64,000 nucleotides of DNA from positions 1 to 64,000 of the forward strand of contig JAJQGB010000017.1 in the NCBI GenBank assembly GCA_021200775.1, in the 5' to 3' direction. A program made the position numbers and the translations under genes. The DNA comes from Oscillospiraceae bacterium. Its GTDB lineage: Bacteria > Bacillota > Clostridia > Oscillospirales > Ruminococcaceae. The notes under the pieces were generated by a model, which was not told where the DNA came from, searched no databases, and saw only the letters and a program-made list of their open reading frames with translations. Within the stretch, counting starts at the first letter, position 1; each line of letters opens with the position of its first letter. Positions 19,399-51,821 of the stretch are shown piece by piece.

Positions 19399-21966
19399 AT
19401 GGCGCAAGCAAAGAAAAGAACAACAACGACTCGCAAGCGCACCTCGGCTTCGGCTAAGGCTTCGGAGGCTCAGCGGCTGAGGCGGAACCGGGTTTACTCG
19501 ATAGTATTCTCGGTGGTGGGGATATTCCTCCTCTTCCTTACGTGGGTGGAGGGAGAATCCCTCTGGAAAATCATGCACAATGTCATGTGGGGACTCTTCG
19601 GAATCTCCGCGGCTTTTGTTGCGCCCATAATTATCTACGTCGCATGTATGCTCGCAATCGACAAGTCGAGCAGTGCGGCGGTCATCAAAACCGTTCAGGG
19701 AACGGTGCTAATCTTCCTTGTCAGCCCGATGTTCGAGATTATCAACGGCTTCATATCCAAAACTCCTGCATTTTCGGGCGACAGCTTCGGAACAATCATC
19801 AGCGCTCTTTATAAAAACGGCGTCGAAAACCACAGGGGCGGCGGAGCTCTCTCCATCTTCATTGGTGGCGGACTCCATGTTCTCTGCGGCAATGTCGGCG
19901 CACTTATTATTATAATTCTTCTGACACTTTTATTTGTGATGTTACTTACTAACATCACTATTGTTGATATGGGAAGATTTATCGCCGGTCTTTTCGGCAA
20001 GGCAAAAACGGCTTGGTCGGATTCGGCTGATGAAAGAGAAGCCCAGCGGCTTGAACGTGAAGCCGAGAATGAAGAAAAGCGCAAGAAGCAGGAAGCCGAG
20101 GCTAAAGAGAAGGAAAAGCAGAAAAAGGCGAATGAGCCGAGAATCGACGTCGCCAAGTTTTTGGAGGACGACGAGCAGGAAGCCATCAAGAATCTTCCCG
20201 TGAAGAAATCCACGAAGAAGCGTGAAAAGATGCCTGCCGACTTCATTTCGGACGACGATATCACGATAAAGGCAAGCGAAGAAATCTTCCCGAAGGAAGA
20301 AGAAAAGCCGGTTGAAGAAAAAGCTCCCGAAGTCAAGGCTGAGCCGGTTGTCGAAGAAAAGAAGCCGGAGCCCGAGCCGGAAAACAAGCTCTATGTCACC
20401 GAAGGCGGTCAGACGGCACTTATCGAAATGGAGAACAGCACCGTTTCCGCCTACAATGCGCCTCCGATTGATTTACTGAATCCGGTTGAGAGAAAAGCCT
20501 CCGCCGAGGACAATGCAATGGAGTCGGAGAAGAACTCGCAGACTCTTGTCGAGACTCTTCGGAGCTTCGGCGTCGCAACCAGAATTGTCGGCATCAGCCG
20601 TGGACCGTCCGTTACAAGATACGAACTCCAGCCTGCGGCGGGCGTCAAGGTCTCGAAGATTACGAGCCTTGCGGACGACATCGCCCTCAACCTTGCGGCA
20701 AGCGGCGTCAGAATCGAAGCTCCTATCCCCGGAAAAGCCGCAGTCGGCATTGAACTTGCAAACAAACAGCGTGAAACCGTCTACATAAGGGAGCTCATCG
20801 ACAGCGACGAGTTCCGAAACGCCAAGGGCAAGCTCTGCTTCCCCGTAGGGCGTGACATCGACGGCAAGATTATCATCGGCGACATCTCGAAAATGCCGCA
20901 CCTTCTCATCGCCGGCACCACCGGTTCCGGTAAATCGGTCTTCACCAACTCAATTATAATGAGTATTCTCTATAACGCTTCCCCTGAGGAGGTCAAGCTC
21001 ATCCTGGTCGACCCGAAGCAGGTCGAGTTCCCGGTCTATAACGGGATTCCGCATTTGCTTATACCCGTTGTAACTGATGCAAAGAAAGCCGCCGGAGCAC
21101 TCGGCTGGGCTGTCACAGAAATGCTGAAGCGATACAGCATCTTTGCCGAGAACAGTGTCAGAGATATTAAAGACTACAATAAACTCGCAGAAGAGAGCGA
21201 GAACCTGAAACCGCTTCCGCAGATGGTTATCGTCGTGGACGAATTGGCAGACCTCATGATGGCGGCTCCGAAGGACGTTGAAGAGTCGATTTGCAGACTT
21301 GCCCAGCTCGCCCGAGCCGCAGGTATGCATTTAATCGTTGCGACCCAGAGCCCGAGAGTCGACATCGTTACCGGTCTTATCAAGGCGAACATCCCTTCAC
21401 GTGTTGCCCTTAAAGTTTCAAACCAGATTGATTCAAGAGTAATTCTCGATGAAGGCGGCGCCGAAGACCTCCTCGGAAACGGCGACCTTCTCTATAAGCC
21501 CGTAGGGCAGTCGAAGCCGACGAGAATCCAGGGCGGATTTGTCGCCACAAACGAAATCAAGCGAGTTGTCGAGTATCTGAAATCCCAGACCGCAGAACAG
21601 CAGTACGACGAAAAGATTGAAAGCGAAATTGAGAAGCACATCCCCGTCTCAAAGGGCGAGAAGGCTTCTTCCGATACGGGAGAGAGCACGAGCAGTGGCA
21701 TCGACGACATGACCGAGCGTGCCATAGAAGCGGTCGTCGAAGCCGGACAAGCCTCCACGAGCTTCCTTCAGCGCCGTTTAAAGCTCGGTTACGCCCGAGC
21801 CGCCCGCACGATGGACGAGCTCGAATCGATGGGCATCGTCGGTCCCGCCGACGGAGCAAAGCCGAGGCAGGTGCTGATGACCAAGGCACAGTGGCTAGAG
21901 AGAAGAGCGATGATTGGCGGAGCGGCGCAGGCGCCTCAAACACCCACTGATAATAGCGAAGAATGA
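19399..21966 (+). CDS. ftsK: FtsK/SpoIIIE DNA translocase
   Basis: An 855-residue hexameric DNA pump. It has four N-terminal membrane segments (residues 35-175) and a charged linker to about residue 350, rich in EEKPVEEKAPE-type acidic/Lys repeats. The motor domain follows with Walker A AGTTGSGKSVFT (about 505-516) and Walker B MVIVVDELADLM. A gamma winged helix (about 770-840) reads DNA polarity sequences. It moves chromosomes at division and into the forespore. The gamma domain protein sequence is repeated without change in the next gene. It ends 27 bp before that gene. Confidence 0.96.
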   Translation: MAQAKKRTTTTRKRTSASAKASEAQRLRRNRVYSIVFSVVGIFLLFLTWVEGESLWKIMHNVMWGLFGISAAFVAPIIIYVACMLAIDKSSSAAVIKTVQGTVLIFLVSPMFEIINGFISKTPAFSGDSFGTIISALYKNGVENHRGGGALSIFIGGGLHVLCGNVGALIIIILLTLLFVMLLTNITIVDMGRFIAGLFGKAKTAWSDSADEREAQRLEREAENEEKRKKQEAEAKEKEKQKKANEPRIDVAKFLEDDEQEAIKNLPVKKSTKKREKMPADFISDDDITIKASEEIFPKEEEKPVEEKAPEVKAEPVVEEKKPEPEPENKLYVTEGGQTALIEMENSTVSAYNAPPIDLLNPVERKASAEDNAMESEKNSQTLVETLRSFGVATRIVGISRGPSVTRYELQPAAGVKVSKITSLADDIALNLAASGVRIEAPIPGKAAVGIELANKQRETVYIRELIDSDEFRNAKGKLCFPVGRDIDGKIIIGDISKMPHLLIAGTTGSGKSVFTNSIIMSILYNASPEEVKLILVDPKQVEFPVYNGIPHLLIPVVTDAKKAAGALGWAVTEMLKRYSIFAENSVRDIKDYNKLAEESENLKPLPQMVIVVDELADLMMAAPKDVEESICRLAQLARAAGMHLIVATQSPRVDIVTGLIKANIPSRVALKVSNQIDSRVILDEGGAEDLLGNGDLLYKPVGQSKPTRIQGGFVATNEIKRVVEYLKSQTAEQQYDEKIESEIEKHIPVSKGEKASSDTGESTSSGIDDMTERAIEAVVEAGQASTSFLQRRLKLGYARAARTMDELESMGIVGPADGAKPRQVLMTKAQWLERRAMIGGAAQAPQTPTDNSEE

Positions 21967-21993: not shown

Positions 21994-23259
21994 ATGGCGA
22001 AAAAGCGAAGAAGAAAAGGAAGAACCAATCCAGTTGGCTTTGCTATTTTGTTAGTTGTATTATTAGTTGCGGTCTTCTATTCAGATGTTTCAGCTTTTAT
22101 CGATAGTCATATAGAGCTGAGCTTATTCTTTCTTGCAGTTCTTATACTAGTTGCTGTAATTTTAATGGTTACCAGACGTAAGTCCCCAATGGGAACCATT
22201 GACCAAGTGGACAATATGGACGGTCATGACTTTGAGTATTGGTGTGCTACATTACTCAGGAAAACAGGTTACAGTAATGTTGTGGTTACCCGTGGAAGTG
22301 GAGACCAAGGTGTTGACATTACCGCCTACAAAGACGGAATCAAGTATGCTTTTCAGTGCAAGAGATATTCTTCCAAGTTGAGTAACAAGCCTGTGCAAGA
22401 AGTATATGCAGGAAAAGCAATGTACGGGTGCCAAGTCGGCGTTGTAATGACGAATAATTACTTTACAGAAGGAGCACAGCAGTTGGCTAAGAGGACGCAC
22501 GTCTTGCTGTGGGATAGAAACACATTAAGACGTATGTTAGCAAGTATTCGCCCGGAAAAACAGCCAAAGAAAAAAGCTAAAGCTGCTCCTGTTTTGCCTG
22601 CGGCGCAAGAGCTACCTGTAAATGAGCCACAAGCTAAAACTATAGCGAGTACACCGCAAATTGATGAAAAAGTGCTTACTACATATCAGGGTGAACTTAT
22701 TGAAAAAGCAATTGATGTGGTTGTTGAAGCTGGTTATGCCCGGACATCCCAACTTCAAAGACATCTGGGATTGGGATATGCAAGAAGTGCGAGAACAATG
22801 GATGAACTTGAAAATCTGGGTATCATAGAATATGGTGATAATATAAATCCACGGAAAGTTATAATGACGAGGCAACAATGGCTTGATAGGAAAAAGTATC
22901 TTGAAAATTGCAATACAAAGCCATCGGAAAGCATCGAGGCTTACAACAGCGATTCGGGTTACTCAGGTGACATAAGCCTTGAAGAGCACGACAGTTATCC
23001 TGATGATATCGTAGAACGTGCCATAGAAGCCGTAGTCGAAGCCGGACAAGCCTCAACAAGCTTCCTTCAGCGCCGTTTAAAGCTCGGTTACGCCCGAGCC
23101 GCCCGCACGATGGACGAGCTCGAATCGATGGGCATCGTCGGTCCCGCCGACGGAGCAAAACCGAGGCAGGTCTTAATGACCAAGGCACAGTGGCTCGAAA
23201 GACGGGCGATGATTGGCGGGACTCCGCAGGGACAAACGGACGACTCCGAAGGGGACTAA
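21994..23259 (+). CDS. Membrane-anchored Mrr-type nuclease fused to two FtsK gamma domains
   Basis: A 421-residue protein. Two membrane segments (about 13-31 and 38-58) are followed by a restriction-endonuclease (Mrr_cat) domain: NMDGHDFEYWCATLLRKTGY, GSGDQGVDITA with the catalytic Asp, and FQCKRY with the Gln/Lys of the PD-(D/E)xK core. After a Pro/Lys linker come two FtsK gamma winged helices. Gamma 1 (about 228-297) is divergent; gamma 2 (about 340-408) is identical in protein sequence to that of the FtsK just upstream. The first two thirds are clearly AT-richer than the neighbours, while gamma 2 has host-like codons. Inferred role: membrane-bound DNA cleavage guided by FtsK polarity sequences, perhaps against foreign DNA. 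The architecture is new to me. Confidence 0.85.
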   Translation: MAKKRRRKGRTNPVGFAILLVVLLVAVFYSDVSAFIDSHIELSLFFLAVLILVAVILMVTRRKSPMGTIDQVDNMDGHDFEYWCATLLRKTGYSNVVVTRGSGDQGVDITAYKDGIKYAFQCKRYSSKLSNKPVQEVYAGKAMYGCQVGVVMTNNYFTEGAQQLAKRTHVLLWDRNTLRRMLASIRPEKQPKKKAKAAPVLPAAQELPVNEPQAKTIASTPQIDEKVLTTYQGELIEKAIDVVVEAGYARTSQLQRHLGLGYARSARTMDELENLGIIEYGDNINPRKVIMTRQQWLDRKKYLENCNTKPSESIEAYNSDSGYSGDISLEEHDSYPDDIVERAIEAVVEAGQASTSFLQRRLKLGYARAARTMDELESMGIVGPADGAKPRQVLMTKAQWLERRAMIGGTPQGQTDDSEGD

Positions 23260-23308
23260 GTTTTCAAGCCGGATGGCTTTAAATAAAATTTGAAAGGGAA
23301 AGTTGAAT

Positions 23309-24049
23309 ATGGCAATGAGCAGAGATGCGGCGTTGATACGCTATGGAGTAGTTTACGATTACCTTCGCAGGGTGCTTGTAAAAGATTGCGGCTTGGACGA
23401 AAATGAAGATTTGAACCTCAGTCAGACCTTCGAGGAGCTTCAGGTGGGCGACATCAAGAAAAAGGTAATTTACATGCACCTGAAAGAGACTTTAGTCATG
23501 TTGCCACCTATTGACGAGGTTTACATCTCCGATTTTGTGACACTCAGAGACATGTACAGATTCGCTTATCAGTACTATGAGAAAAATCTTAAATTTGATG
23601 AAATGGATGAAATCTGGAAGTATTTTGCACGGAAGCTCGTGAAGTACTCACACCCCGAAAAGACGGAATATAAGCTCGCCTTTACTCCCGAAGAGGTAAG
23701 GTGGGACACGAAGCTTTCATATGCCTTCGGCATCGGACAGGTGGAAATCGATAAGCTTAGACAGGATTTGAAGAGTGCAACCGGAGTGACAGTGCCTCCA
23801 ATCGAGGTTTACTCATCGTTCCTGATGCTCATAGAGAACACAGTGGGTACTATTCCTGAGAGTGAACACAGCCAGTTCAACAAGAAGTGTAAAGAAGCCA
23901 ACCAGAAAGAACCGGCATACGAGGCGCCGGTGGTTGTAGAAAGCAAGGAGAAGCCATCCTGCTGGGCAGGACTTCTGTATCTCTTCCTTCTGCTTCTGCC
24001 ATTCCTGGCTATCGGCGGAATTGTGGCACTGATTTTGAACAATGTTTGA
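23309..24049 (+). CDS. Hypothetical tail-anchored membrane protein
   Basis: A 246-residue protein. A soluble, mostly helical N-terminal region (MSRDAALIRYGVVYDYLRR, TLRDMYRFAYQYYEKNLKF, EVRWDTKLSYAFGIGQVEI) is followed by one strongly hydrophobic C-terminal segment (AGLLYLFLLLLPFLAIGGIV). It is probably tail-anchored with the bulk in the cytoplasm. No family recognised. It follows the Mrr-gamma gene at 49 bp and could be its partner, but this is only position. The ATG at 23309 is preferred; GAAAGGGAAA lies upstream. Confidence 0.65.
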   Translation: MAMSRDAALIRYGVVYDYLRRVLVKDCGLDENEDLNLSQTFEELQVGDIKKKVIYMHLKETLVMLPPIDEVYISDFVTLRDMYRFAYQYYEKNLKFDEMDEIWKYFARKLVKYSHPEKTEYKLAFTPEEVRWDTKLSYAFGIGQVEIDKLRQDLKSATGVTVPPIEVYSSFLMLIENTVGTIPESEHSQFNKKCKEANQKEPAYEAPVVVESKEKPSCWAGLLYLFLLLLPFLAIGGIVALILNNV

Positions 24050-49961: not shown

Positions 49962-50963
49962 CTAAGATAGTGTTTGCCTTATTGCAGTTGCGACTTCAAA
50001 TGCCAGATTTATAGGGACTGCATTGCCAATCATTTTGTATGCGTTATTTGTATCACTGTAGATGAACTGAAATGAGTCCGGAAATCCTTGAACACGGGCA
50101 ACTTCTCTTATAGTCATCCTCCTATAGAGATTTTCCTTGCCCGGCACAAAACGACAGTCGTCTTTGCCGTACTTCACCATTTTCGGTGCTTGCGGGTGAA
50201 GCTGGCACTGTCTGCCGGATGCCTGAACTGTAAATGCTTGCTCATCCCATGACTTAACCCGATTTCTGCTCATAAAGATAGGAGAATAGGCACCGACAAA
50301 GTATTCATTGTTGTTAATTGCCGCAGGGTTATGCTGATTATTTTTAAGAGCAGGTACTGCTGCTTTTTGCAAATCCCAAATAGTATCACGGAGGGTGATT
50401 TTGTCGCAGTCTTTCTCAGTAGACCCTTTCGGAAAAGCAAAATCTACGTTCAAGTCTTTTCTGAATCCTATGTAGAAGACACGCTTTCTTTCTTGTGCAA
50501 CGCCGTAATCTTTGGCGTTTACCAAAGTAAGAGAAACATTGTAACCTGCTTCGTCAAACATCTTTAATATGTTTTTAACAGCTTCGTTGTGTCTATTGGC
50601 AAGCATTCCACTGACATTTTCCGCCAAAAAGAATTTTGGCATAAATTCTTTCAATATCCGGATATAGTCATAAAACAGTTGACCTCTGGAATCTTCAATT
50701 CCTCGAAGAGCACCGGCTTCAGACCAGGATTGACATGGTGGTCCACCTATAATACCGTCGACTTCTTCCGTTAAAAACGGAGTAATGTCATCTCTTGTAA
50801 TCTGTCTTATATCGCCTTCGATGAGGTGAGTATTTACATGATTGACTTTGAAAGTTTCGTAGATTGTAGGGTCGTATTCATTGGCAACAGGAATGGAAAA
50901 CCCGGCTTTTTCAAAGCCAAGATCCAAGCCGCCACACCCGCTGAACAAGCTTATTACATTCAT
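49962..50963 (-). CDS. DNA cytosine-5 methyltransferase, probably GGCC-specific
   Basis: A 333-residue C5 methyltransferase. SAM motif [15 protein letters not shown] (I), catalytic [12 protein letters not shown] (IV), ENVSGML (VI), a target recognition region around [18 protein letters not shown], and GNAVPINLA (X). With the NgoPII-like nuclease encoded 12 bp upstream it forms a type II restriction-modification system. GGCC is inferred from the nuclease family and the M.HaeIII-like TRD. AT content is higher than in neighbours, which fits horizontal transfer. Confidence 0.93.
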
Positions 50964-50975
50964 TTCAAAACGTCC

Positions 50976-51821
50976 TTATAATCCAAAAGTGATAAGCTTA
51001 GCATCCCGAAGCTGTGCGGGATTATCAGGATTTTTAATCCTGACATCGGCAACTTTTAATGAAGCATTGTTTTGTGCAAGTGCAATCAATTCGCAGGTAT
51101 TATTGAAGGATTCCCATTTGGAGCTATTTATAATACACATGAAATCGAAATTATAAGATTGGTTTCGCGTATAAACATAATCAAACACGTTCCAAGGGTT
51201 TTCAATTCCCCACATTCCACGAACTCGCATATATGTAATTCCGAGTGGGTCAACCTTGTTGATATGCCCCAACTCGCGACTTTCCGCAAATTCGATTCCC
51301 GGAATCGCCTCAACACCGTTCTTTATTGTTGTCTTGATTCGGCTGTAGCATTCGTCTGAGGCGCAGTAGTCAAGACCATACACCATGCAAAGGCGTTTAA
51401 GGTCGTTTGTGTTTTTATCGACAACTCCGACGGTGTATATGATGTCCTTTTCCGTCCATTGCTCTGCCGATTTACATGCGCTTGAAATCATATGGCTGGA
51501 AGAAAGCACGGTGTGCTTCGGATAACTGCTGTTCAAAGCAAGCGCCGCACCTTCTGATTCAATTTTCTTTACCTCAATAGCATCTCCACCACGGAGCATC
51601 GCATCTGGTGGATTTGAATTGTTGCCAAGGTAAGAAAACTCCTGACTTATTTTTTCAAGTCTTTCCGCTTCCGGCAAATCGAAGGTTCCAGCAAATAAAT
51701 CTTTTGTATATTCCTCAAGCGCATCACCTGCATTGTTGGCTCTGTTTCTACCCTGATAATCGTGTACAAGATGCACAATAGGGTGATTGACTAGATTTAT
51801 TATGGCGTCTATTATATTCAT
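50976..51821 (-). CDS. NgoPII-family type II restriction endonuclease
   Basis: A 281-residue protein similar to R.NgoPII, a GGCC-cutting enzyme. Typical stretches are NRANNAGDALEEYTKDLFAG, FSYLGNNSNPPDAMLRGGDAIEVKKIE with the catalytic Asp and ExK, and ALALNSSYPKHTVL. The nuclease gene comes first and the methyltransferase second, 12 bp apart. No controller (C) protein gene is visible, so timing must come from the promoter or another factor. AAGGA precedes the ATG. Confidence 0.88.
   Translation of the reverse strand: MNIIDAIINLVNHPIVHLVHDYQGRNRANNAGDALEEYTKDLFAGTFDLPEAERLEKISQEFSYLGNNSNPPDAMLRGGDAIEVKKIESEGAALALNSSYPKHTVLSSSHMISSACKSAEQWTEKDIIYTVGVVDKNTNDLKRLCMVYGLDYCASDECYSRIKTTIKNGVEAIPGIEFAESRELGHINKVDPLGITYMRVRGMWGIENPWNVFDYVYTRNQSYNFDFMCIINSSKWESFNNTCELIALAQNNASLKVADVRIKNPDNPAQLRDAKLITFGL

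Follow-up and report, generated by a model that had tools for sequence, protein, structure and literature searches.

An Mrr-type nuclease fused to FtsK gamma domains behind ftsK in an Oscillospiraceae genome, with relatives on viral contigs: a possible DNA-exclusion enzyme

The gene behind ftsK

The window, by which we mean the whole 64,000 nt stretch that was analysed of Oscillospiraceae contig JAJQGB010000017.1, from a relative of Ruminococcus, carries on its forward strand an ftsK gene (19399..21966) encoding an 855 aa protein with a motor and a gamma domain (the latter at 21703-21882). The next gene (21994..23259) starts 27 nt downstream of the ftsK stop codon on the same strand and encodes a protein of 421 aa; opposite it there are only shorter overlapping ORFs. 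Its product has two hydrophobic helices (residues 14-32, 22033..22089, and residues 42-60, 22117..22173), a nuclease domain of the PD-(D/E)xK type (Mrr_cat, residues 73-182, 22210..22539) and two FtsK_gamma domains, of which gamma 1 (residues 233-292, 22690..22869) is diverged and gamma 2 (residues 337-396, 23002..23181) is a near copy of the gamma domain of the upstream FtsK. The helices come from a simple hydropathy scan rather than a trained topology predictor. The original prediction, which was made from the letters alone, had claimed these parts in this order and a location directly behind ftsK, and both claims are borne out, with Mrr_cat and FtsK_gamma matching in the one protein above their curated cut-offs.

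The Mrr_cat match (PF04471) has an E-value of 2.1e-31 and a score of 108.8 bits against a cut-off of 21, and covers positions 2-115 of the 115 in the profile. FtsK_gamma (PF09397) matches in two stretches (63.1 bits for gamma 1 and 95.4 bits for gamma 2), the protein as a whole scoring 150.6 bits (E-value 9.2e-45) against a cut-off of 30.6, and Pfam finds no FtsK motor (FtsK_SpoIIIE) domain in it. When the structure database was searched, the gamma part found FtsK structures by sequence, and the nuclease part found 1y88 (7.9e-06) and LlaBIII 4xqk (0.0012) by profile. Residues E81, D108, Q121 and K123, which correspond to the active-site residues of the Mrr family, are kept in all 11 of the fused Mrr domains aligned; among the unfused rows of the same alignment D108, Q121 and K123 are present in 34 of 34 and E81 in 33. 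The genome contains three gamma domains by our search, one in FtsK and two in this protein.

Farther downstream on the same strand is a gene for a 248 aa protein (23303..24049) that has no Pfam, NCBIfam or PADLOC match. A prophage at this position was considered and rejected, as reading through the ORF list of the window, with six gene neighbours and a restriction-modification pair profiled, revealed no repressor or integrase. The pair in question (49962-51821, reverse strand) looks complete, with an NgoPII-type restriction endonuclease beside a C5 cytosine methylase.

Gamma 2 and the 3′ end of ftsK form a direct repeat of 217 nt whose two copies (21715..21931 in ftsK, and 23014..23230 in gamma 2 and the tail that follows it, both on the forward strand) are 92 % identical; the next-best ftsK among the relatives compared reaches 88 % DNA identity to gamma 2. 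Gamma 2 and the FtsK gamma are separated, across 76 codons, by 16 silent nucleotides and by 7 nucleotides in changed codons, a mostly silent pattern that suggests constraint. Gamma 1 differs from the FtsK gamma in 53 of 60 codons and forms a long branch amid the FtsKs of the genus in the gamma tree, and judging by this divergence it is either old or fast-evolving. A congener (L034) has a TM-Mrr-gamma gene at the same spot, with a long stretch separating the helices from the nuclease and an interruption by an in-frame TAG; Pfam matches gamma and Mrr on separate pieces, the Mrr part downstream of the stop being short and scoring below the cut-off. The L034 gamma is also closest to its own ftsK (87.3 % DNA identity, versus 86.0 % for the next among the relatives compared). 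Since both fused gammas are nearest to the ftsK next to them, they appear to have been copied from this neighbour or to be undergoing homogenization with it.

In this genus, just 2 of the 31 genomes (our own counted) have the fusion behind ftsK, one of the two copies being the stop-broken gene of L034, and other genes are found in the same spot, so that the link to ftsK is local. Linkage of the architecture to ftsK therefore stands for the window and for L034 but not as a general rule, which we reject, since the other members whose surroundings were read, including the viral ones, do not lie beside ftsK. Among ten close relatives (L010, L015 and L034-L041, L036 being the same genome as L011) the interval between ftsK and a gene of metallo-beta-lactamase type ranges from a few nucleotides (L036) to about 2.5 kb (L041), and its contents include a Fic gene (L037), a DUF285 repeat protein (L041) and the broken Mrr-gamma gene (L034). 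Relatives of the 248 aa protein, 24 to 80 % identical, occupy the ftsK spot in the absence of a nuclease in L010, L012-L015 and L038-L041 (L012-L014 are the genomes of L038-L040), and this protein may or may not be part of the system. We note that the Fic gene of L037 (PF02661; 6836-7611) is preceded by a small ORF, which may resemble a Fic antitoxin, and that a lone relative of this ORF is found in L035 (8379-8546).

Distribution and surroundings of gamma-Mrr proteins

Altogether 18 distinct proteins combine a gamma domain with Mrr: 4 are chromosomal, 1 (L046, TM-gamma-Mrr) is on a phage-labelled faecal contig and 13 are on IMG/VR contigs. The order is gamma-Mrr in 12 and Mrr-gamma in 6, and chromosomal members include L050 (genome G294, TM-gamma-Mrr) and L052 (genome G367, TM-x-Mrr-gamma). 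Both domains score above the Pfam cut-offs in L046, L050, L052, L083, L085, L215, L216, L226, L227, L233 and L236; the fusions of L087, L089, L091 and L097 were checked with PHROGs and custom profiles, and that of L269 with custom profiles only. The 13 fused proteins of IMG/VR are among 54 distinct Mrr proteins of the loci scanned, a biased rate, as these loci were fetched with fused queries.

At the level of the order (394 genomes), 17 Mrr loci were retrieved among the matches listed (L050-L066), and 3 of them, the window included, are fused. A class-wide search of 391 genomes with query A1 found matches in 12 at E≤1e-30, and the 12 Mrr loci retrieved besides our own all lack a gamma domain. 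Searched for by itself across the phylum, gamma matches in 290 of 299 genomes, mostly with one gamma per genome among the matches listed. Query P0001 had no match in viral_contigs, and tblastn found no record in which one place covered 80 % of the protein among the best 25 of 307 phage records (four matches inspected) or the best 25 of 431 plasmid records.

Phylogenetic trees were built for the Mrr domains and for the gamma domains (the latter from 84 rows, reduced to 69 after 15 near-duplicates were dropped); neither tree includes the viral loci L214-L277 and few of their branches are well supported. The fused label requires 11 changes for 11 rows on the Mrr tree, of which at least two are forced by well-supported branches, and it is forced to change at least three times on the gamma tree. 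The forced changes on the Mrr tree indicate that gamma probably joined Mrr more than once, and repeated fusion is thus likely, the trees leaving the number of events unfixed. As to the origin of the reader, several fused gammas group with host-type FtsK gammas, and in three of the four chromosomal cases (the window, L034 and G294) the reader is close to that of the cell's own FtsK. The fused gamma of G294 is 81 % identical at the amino acid level to the gamma of its own FtsK, more than to any other row compared, whereas that of G367 is 51 % identical to its own FtsK and 57 % to another row.

A membrane segment is seen in 11 of the 18 members (6 of 13 viral and all 5 others) by hydropathy, the viral start codons being unchecked. 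Some Mrr proteins with and without gamma (L087, L089, L092, L084 and L034) share an N-terminal helical region, which corresponds to phrog_7974 in L087 and L089 and was recognized by eye in the other three. One viral protein (L085 4551-6254, which is L092 5551-7254 on the same contig) contains gamma, a partial FtsK motor and the Mrr nuclease; it is the sole motor match by Pfam among ten relatives or pieces, covers positions 62-144 of the 221 in the FtsK_SpoIIIE profile and leaves the start of the profile unmatched.

Many of the viral genes lie in phage-type surroundings. An XRE-type repressor is near the gene in L087, L088, L089, L091, L092 and L097, an ImmA-like peptidase in all of these except L091, and an integrase or recombinase in all except L092. 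By seed search, a repressor or ImmA-like gene is within 5 kb of 8 of the 13 viral fused members and an integrase within 5 kb of 6, while in 5 of the 13 the seeds used found no repressor or ImmA relative within that distance. Six of these viral loci had themselves supplied the seeds; independent support is provided by PHROGs profiles run on one to three genes beside the member in each of those six, which identified repressors (L087 and L089), metallo-proteases (L087 and L088, and weakly L092) and integrases (L087, L088, L089, L091 and L097). Among 41 unfused viral Mrr proteins, 19 have an integrase nearby, 13 have a repressor or ImmA relative nearby and 27 have a membrane segment, so such places are favoured by the whole phage Mrr group and not just by its gamma-bearing part; gamma is an optional extra within a phage Mrr group. 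The interval of L097 with the repressor and integrase genes also contains a SIR2_2 gene, the L215 and L216 genes lie among other genes and their products have no membrane segment, and no phage genes were picked out near the chromosomal L050 and L052.

A candidate polarity motif and the DNA-contact residues

The gamma domain of FtsK is the reader that steers chromosome pumping, and the original prediction supposed that the fused copies would have a polarity script to read. The search for such a script covered 830 kb on contigs C2 and C6, which were selected once long co-directional runs had been noticed in them. Of the 46,434 one-gap octamers with enough copies to be ranked, GNAGGGAA comes first whether scored by its weakest stratum or by the combined score. 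These contigs were oriented by gene direction, leaving out C2 310-320 kb, in place of 10-kb GC skew, which was uninformative for orientation and disagrees with gene direction in places. Leading copies of GNAGGGAA outnumber lagging ones by 70:12 where genes are co-directional, by 17:4 where they are counter-directional and by 23:6 in intergenic DNA, and its skew thus tracks replication rather than coding. On C2 the counts turn from 41:4 before 310 kb to 2:13 after 320 kb, where gene direction converges; two contigs unused for discovery agree (C9 42:13 and C13 13:6), and on C15, the contig of the window, the motif is not polar (12:8).

The strongly skewed control octamers behave in several ways in counter-directional genes: five of seven flip, GACCCNGA for example to 2:14, AGAAAAAG shows no preference (5:6) and CCCGACNG stays on the same side (19:12). 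The last shows that a skew following replication is not unique to GNAGGGAA but merely strongest there. Two classical motifs were tried as the local one and rejected. The SRS sequence GAGAAGGG stands at 18:4 in the 830 kb but has too few copies in counter-directional genes (2:3) for a judgement, and KOPS, GGGNAGGG, is unskewed (40:48 in the 830 kb). The other top-ranked octamers are overlapping forms of GNAGGGAA or pieces of an apparent interspersed repeat, which the overlapping skewed octamers of C2 and C6 suggest to be centred around GGAGGGAGTGGATT.

KOPS of E. coli is given as GGGNAGGG and SRS of Bacillus subtilis as GAGAAGGG in PMC8190038, and both share the core GNAGGG with GNAGGGAA. Given this shared core, there is probably a sequence for gamma to read, and the supposed polarity script is supported to that extent. 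We regard GNAGGGAA as a candidate polarity motif for this genus, which its FtsK would presumably read.

In E. coli FtsK, residues 1289-1297 of gamma form a contact surface for both KOPS and XerD (PMC5052618). Across the aligned stretch gamma 2 retains the residues of its own FtsK. By eye, 16 of 19 fused gamma copies have the arginine corresponding to E. coli R1289, the exceptions being L215, L216 and L226, and 14 of 19 have the one corresponding to R1297; other surface positions vary. As these matches are not universal, some of the fused gammas may not read KOPS.

Possible function and relation to known systems

We give about an even chance to the reading that this is a DNA-exclusion nuclease of a restriction type, often anchored in the membrane, which has borrowed the FtsK gamma as a DNA-docking part. 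The Mrr domain would cut DNA, and the N-terminal helices would keep it at the membrane and apart from the bulk of the nucleoid, a location that may serve for self-protection. The gamma domains would grip octamers of the KOPS/SRS type, here probably GNAGGGAA, and phage or plasmid DNA that had come past the membrane would be caught at any such sites it offered and then cut. The carriers are mainly viral, largely temperate-phage-like elements, the gene often being near immunity genes, with an occasional single chromosomal gene, and at the window locus gamma 2 would have been copied or homogenized from the adjoining ftsK. Several findings speak against this exclusion reading: some members have no membrane segment, unfused viral Mrr proteins lie in phage-type surroundings as well, some fused gammas have lost a contact arginine, five viral members have no repressor or ImmA relative within 5 kb by the seeds used and the chromosomal L050 and L052 no phage genes picked out nearby, the G367 reader is not nearest to its own FtsK, no PADLOC match covers the architecture, GNAGGGAA is not polar on the contig of the window, and the host chromosome carries the same sites. 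More specifically, this could be a recurring class in which temperate phages and some chromosomes fuse the polarity reader of the host lineage to Mrr so that the KOPS-type script of the host decides where, or whether, DNA is cut. Cleavage by the window protein might then be guided by polarity, as was originally predicted, but we consider this bolder proposal doubtful. If it is true, self would be told from non-self by chromosome polarity and not by methylation or spacers. With 14 of the 18 gamma-nuclease fusions on viral or phage-labelled contigs, chromosome polarity motifs would become a possible basis of immunity.

Exclusion has to be weighed against other explanations, of which a by-product of insertion seems to us rather unlikely. 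Here a TM-Mrr gene would have recombined into the 3′ end of ftsK, and the gammas would be a scar, or would keep the locus excisable, instead of acting as a reader. The 217-nt direct repeat is what such an event might leave; the nearness of each fused gamma to the ftsK beside it is what duplication or gene conversion predicts, the spot accepts various genes, and the L034 copy is broken by a TAG. A scar would not, however, readily account for the retention of a second, diverged gamma or for the mostly silent changes in gamma 2, and fusions that lie away from ftsK or on viral contigs cannot be such scars. The proximity to ftsK, only 27 nt away on the same strand, and the near identity of gamma 2 to the FtsK gamma could also be taken to indicate a role with FtsK at the septum or in segregation, where the protein would cut trapped chromosome or dimer DNA through KOPS sites or through contact of gamma with XerD; a single surface of the E. 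coli gamma binds both (PMC5052618). We judge this unlikely, as the gene is behind ftsK in so few genomes of the genus, one of the copies being broken, the same spot in close relatives holds unrelated genes or nearly nothing, and neither the viral nor the other chromosomal members are beside ftsK where their surroundings were read. Many viral relatives also lie in surroundings of a lysogeny type, which speaks for keeping out other DNA rather than for a task at the septum.

A phage gamma could instead sit on the KOPS or XerD of the host and interfere with segregation, or direct damage to the host chromosome as in abortive infection. The grouping of several fused gammas with host-type FtsK gammas fits such a takeover of, or competition with, the host, as does the occurrence of gamma elsewhere among phage proteins, for instance in a small terminase (PMC8190038). 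The protein of L085 also has part of an FtsK-type motor. Many viral members are found, however, among repressor and integrase genes, a region of phage genomes that is usually expressed in lysogens, and chromosomal copies exist, so that we think takeover distinctly improbable.

The exclusion reading can be compared with several known systems. The full-length domain match and the active-site residues are those of Mrr restriction endonucleases (PF04471). E. coli Mrr is soluble and has its own N-terminal winged helix, whereas in the window protein the DNA reader is the FtsK gamma and two hydrophobic helices are added. Its two near-full-length gamma domains (PF09397), one of them nearly identical to that of the neighbouring FtsK, recall FtsK/SpoIIIE, from which it differs in carrying a nuclease and no motor domain match. 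The best PADLOC match to the nuclease part is Zorya ZorD (8.2e-21), described by PADLOC as a SWI2/SNF2 helicase with a nuclease; the similarity is limited to the nuclease part, no helicase match was found in the protein by Pfam, and there is no ZorA- or ZorB-like match among six neighbours. In a PADLOC run on the window protein and one neighbour, no match covered the whole architecture.

The closest parallel in mode of action may be SNIPE, a membrane-anchored nuclease that cleaves phage DNA as it is being injected and becomes toxic when the anchor is missing (PMC13190303; reviewed in PMC12904381). Like the window protein, in which hydropathy places two hydrophobic segments within residues 1-60, SNIPE as described in PMC13190303 combines a membrane anchor at the N-terminus with a DNA-binding module and a nuclease on a single polypeptide; its parts are GIY-YIG and DUF4041 in place of an Mrr PD-(D/E)xK domain and FtsK gamma, and neither GIY-YIG nor DUF4041 is among the eight Pfam matches of the window protein up to an E-value of 0.1. 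By this analogy, the protein might work like SNIPE without belonging to that family. The membrane PD-(D/E)XK proteins of COG4741 were earlier proposed to be a membrane-associated guardian against foreign DNA (PMC1189080), although their nuclease is related to YraN and the accessible text of that paper names no gamma domain. Our literature search, which included few subscription papers and no bioRxiv preprints, found no published description of the gamma-Mrr architecture, and the view that it comes from no described system is upheld to that extent. What is new is the architecture within membrane or Mrr-type exclusion nucleases, and it may represent an undescribed kind of DNA-exclusion enzyme.

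A precedent for gamma on a DNA-processing protein of phages is the small terminase of Sam46 and Sam112, with an N-terminal FtsK_gamma (PMC8190038). It is a DNA packaging protein with a Terminase_2 domain, and no Mrr-type nuclease or membrane anchor is named for it in the accessible part of that source. We also observed a gamma domain near the C-terminus of viral proteins of about 350 aa with no assigned function (L098-L107), and in the middle of a 486 aa viral protein that resembles the FtsK motor (L095).
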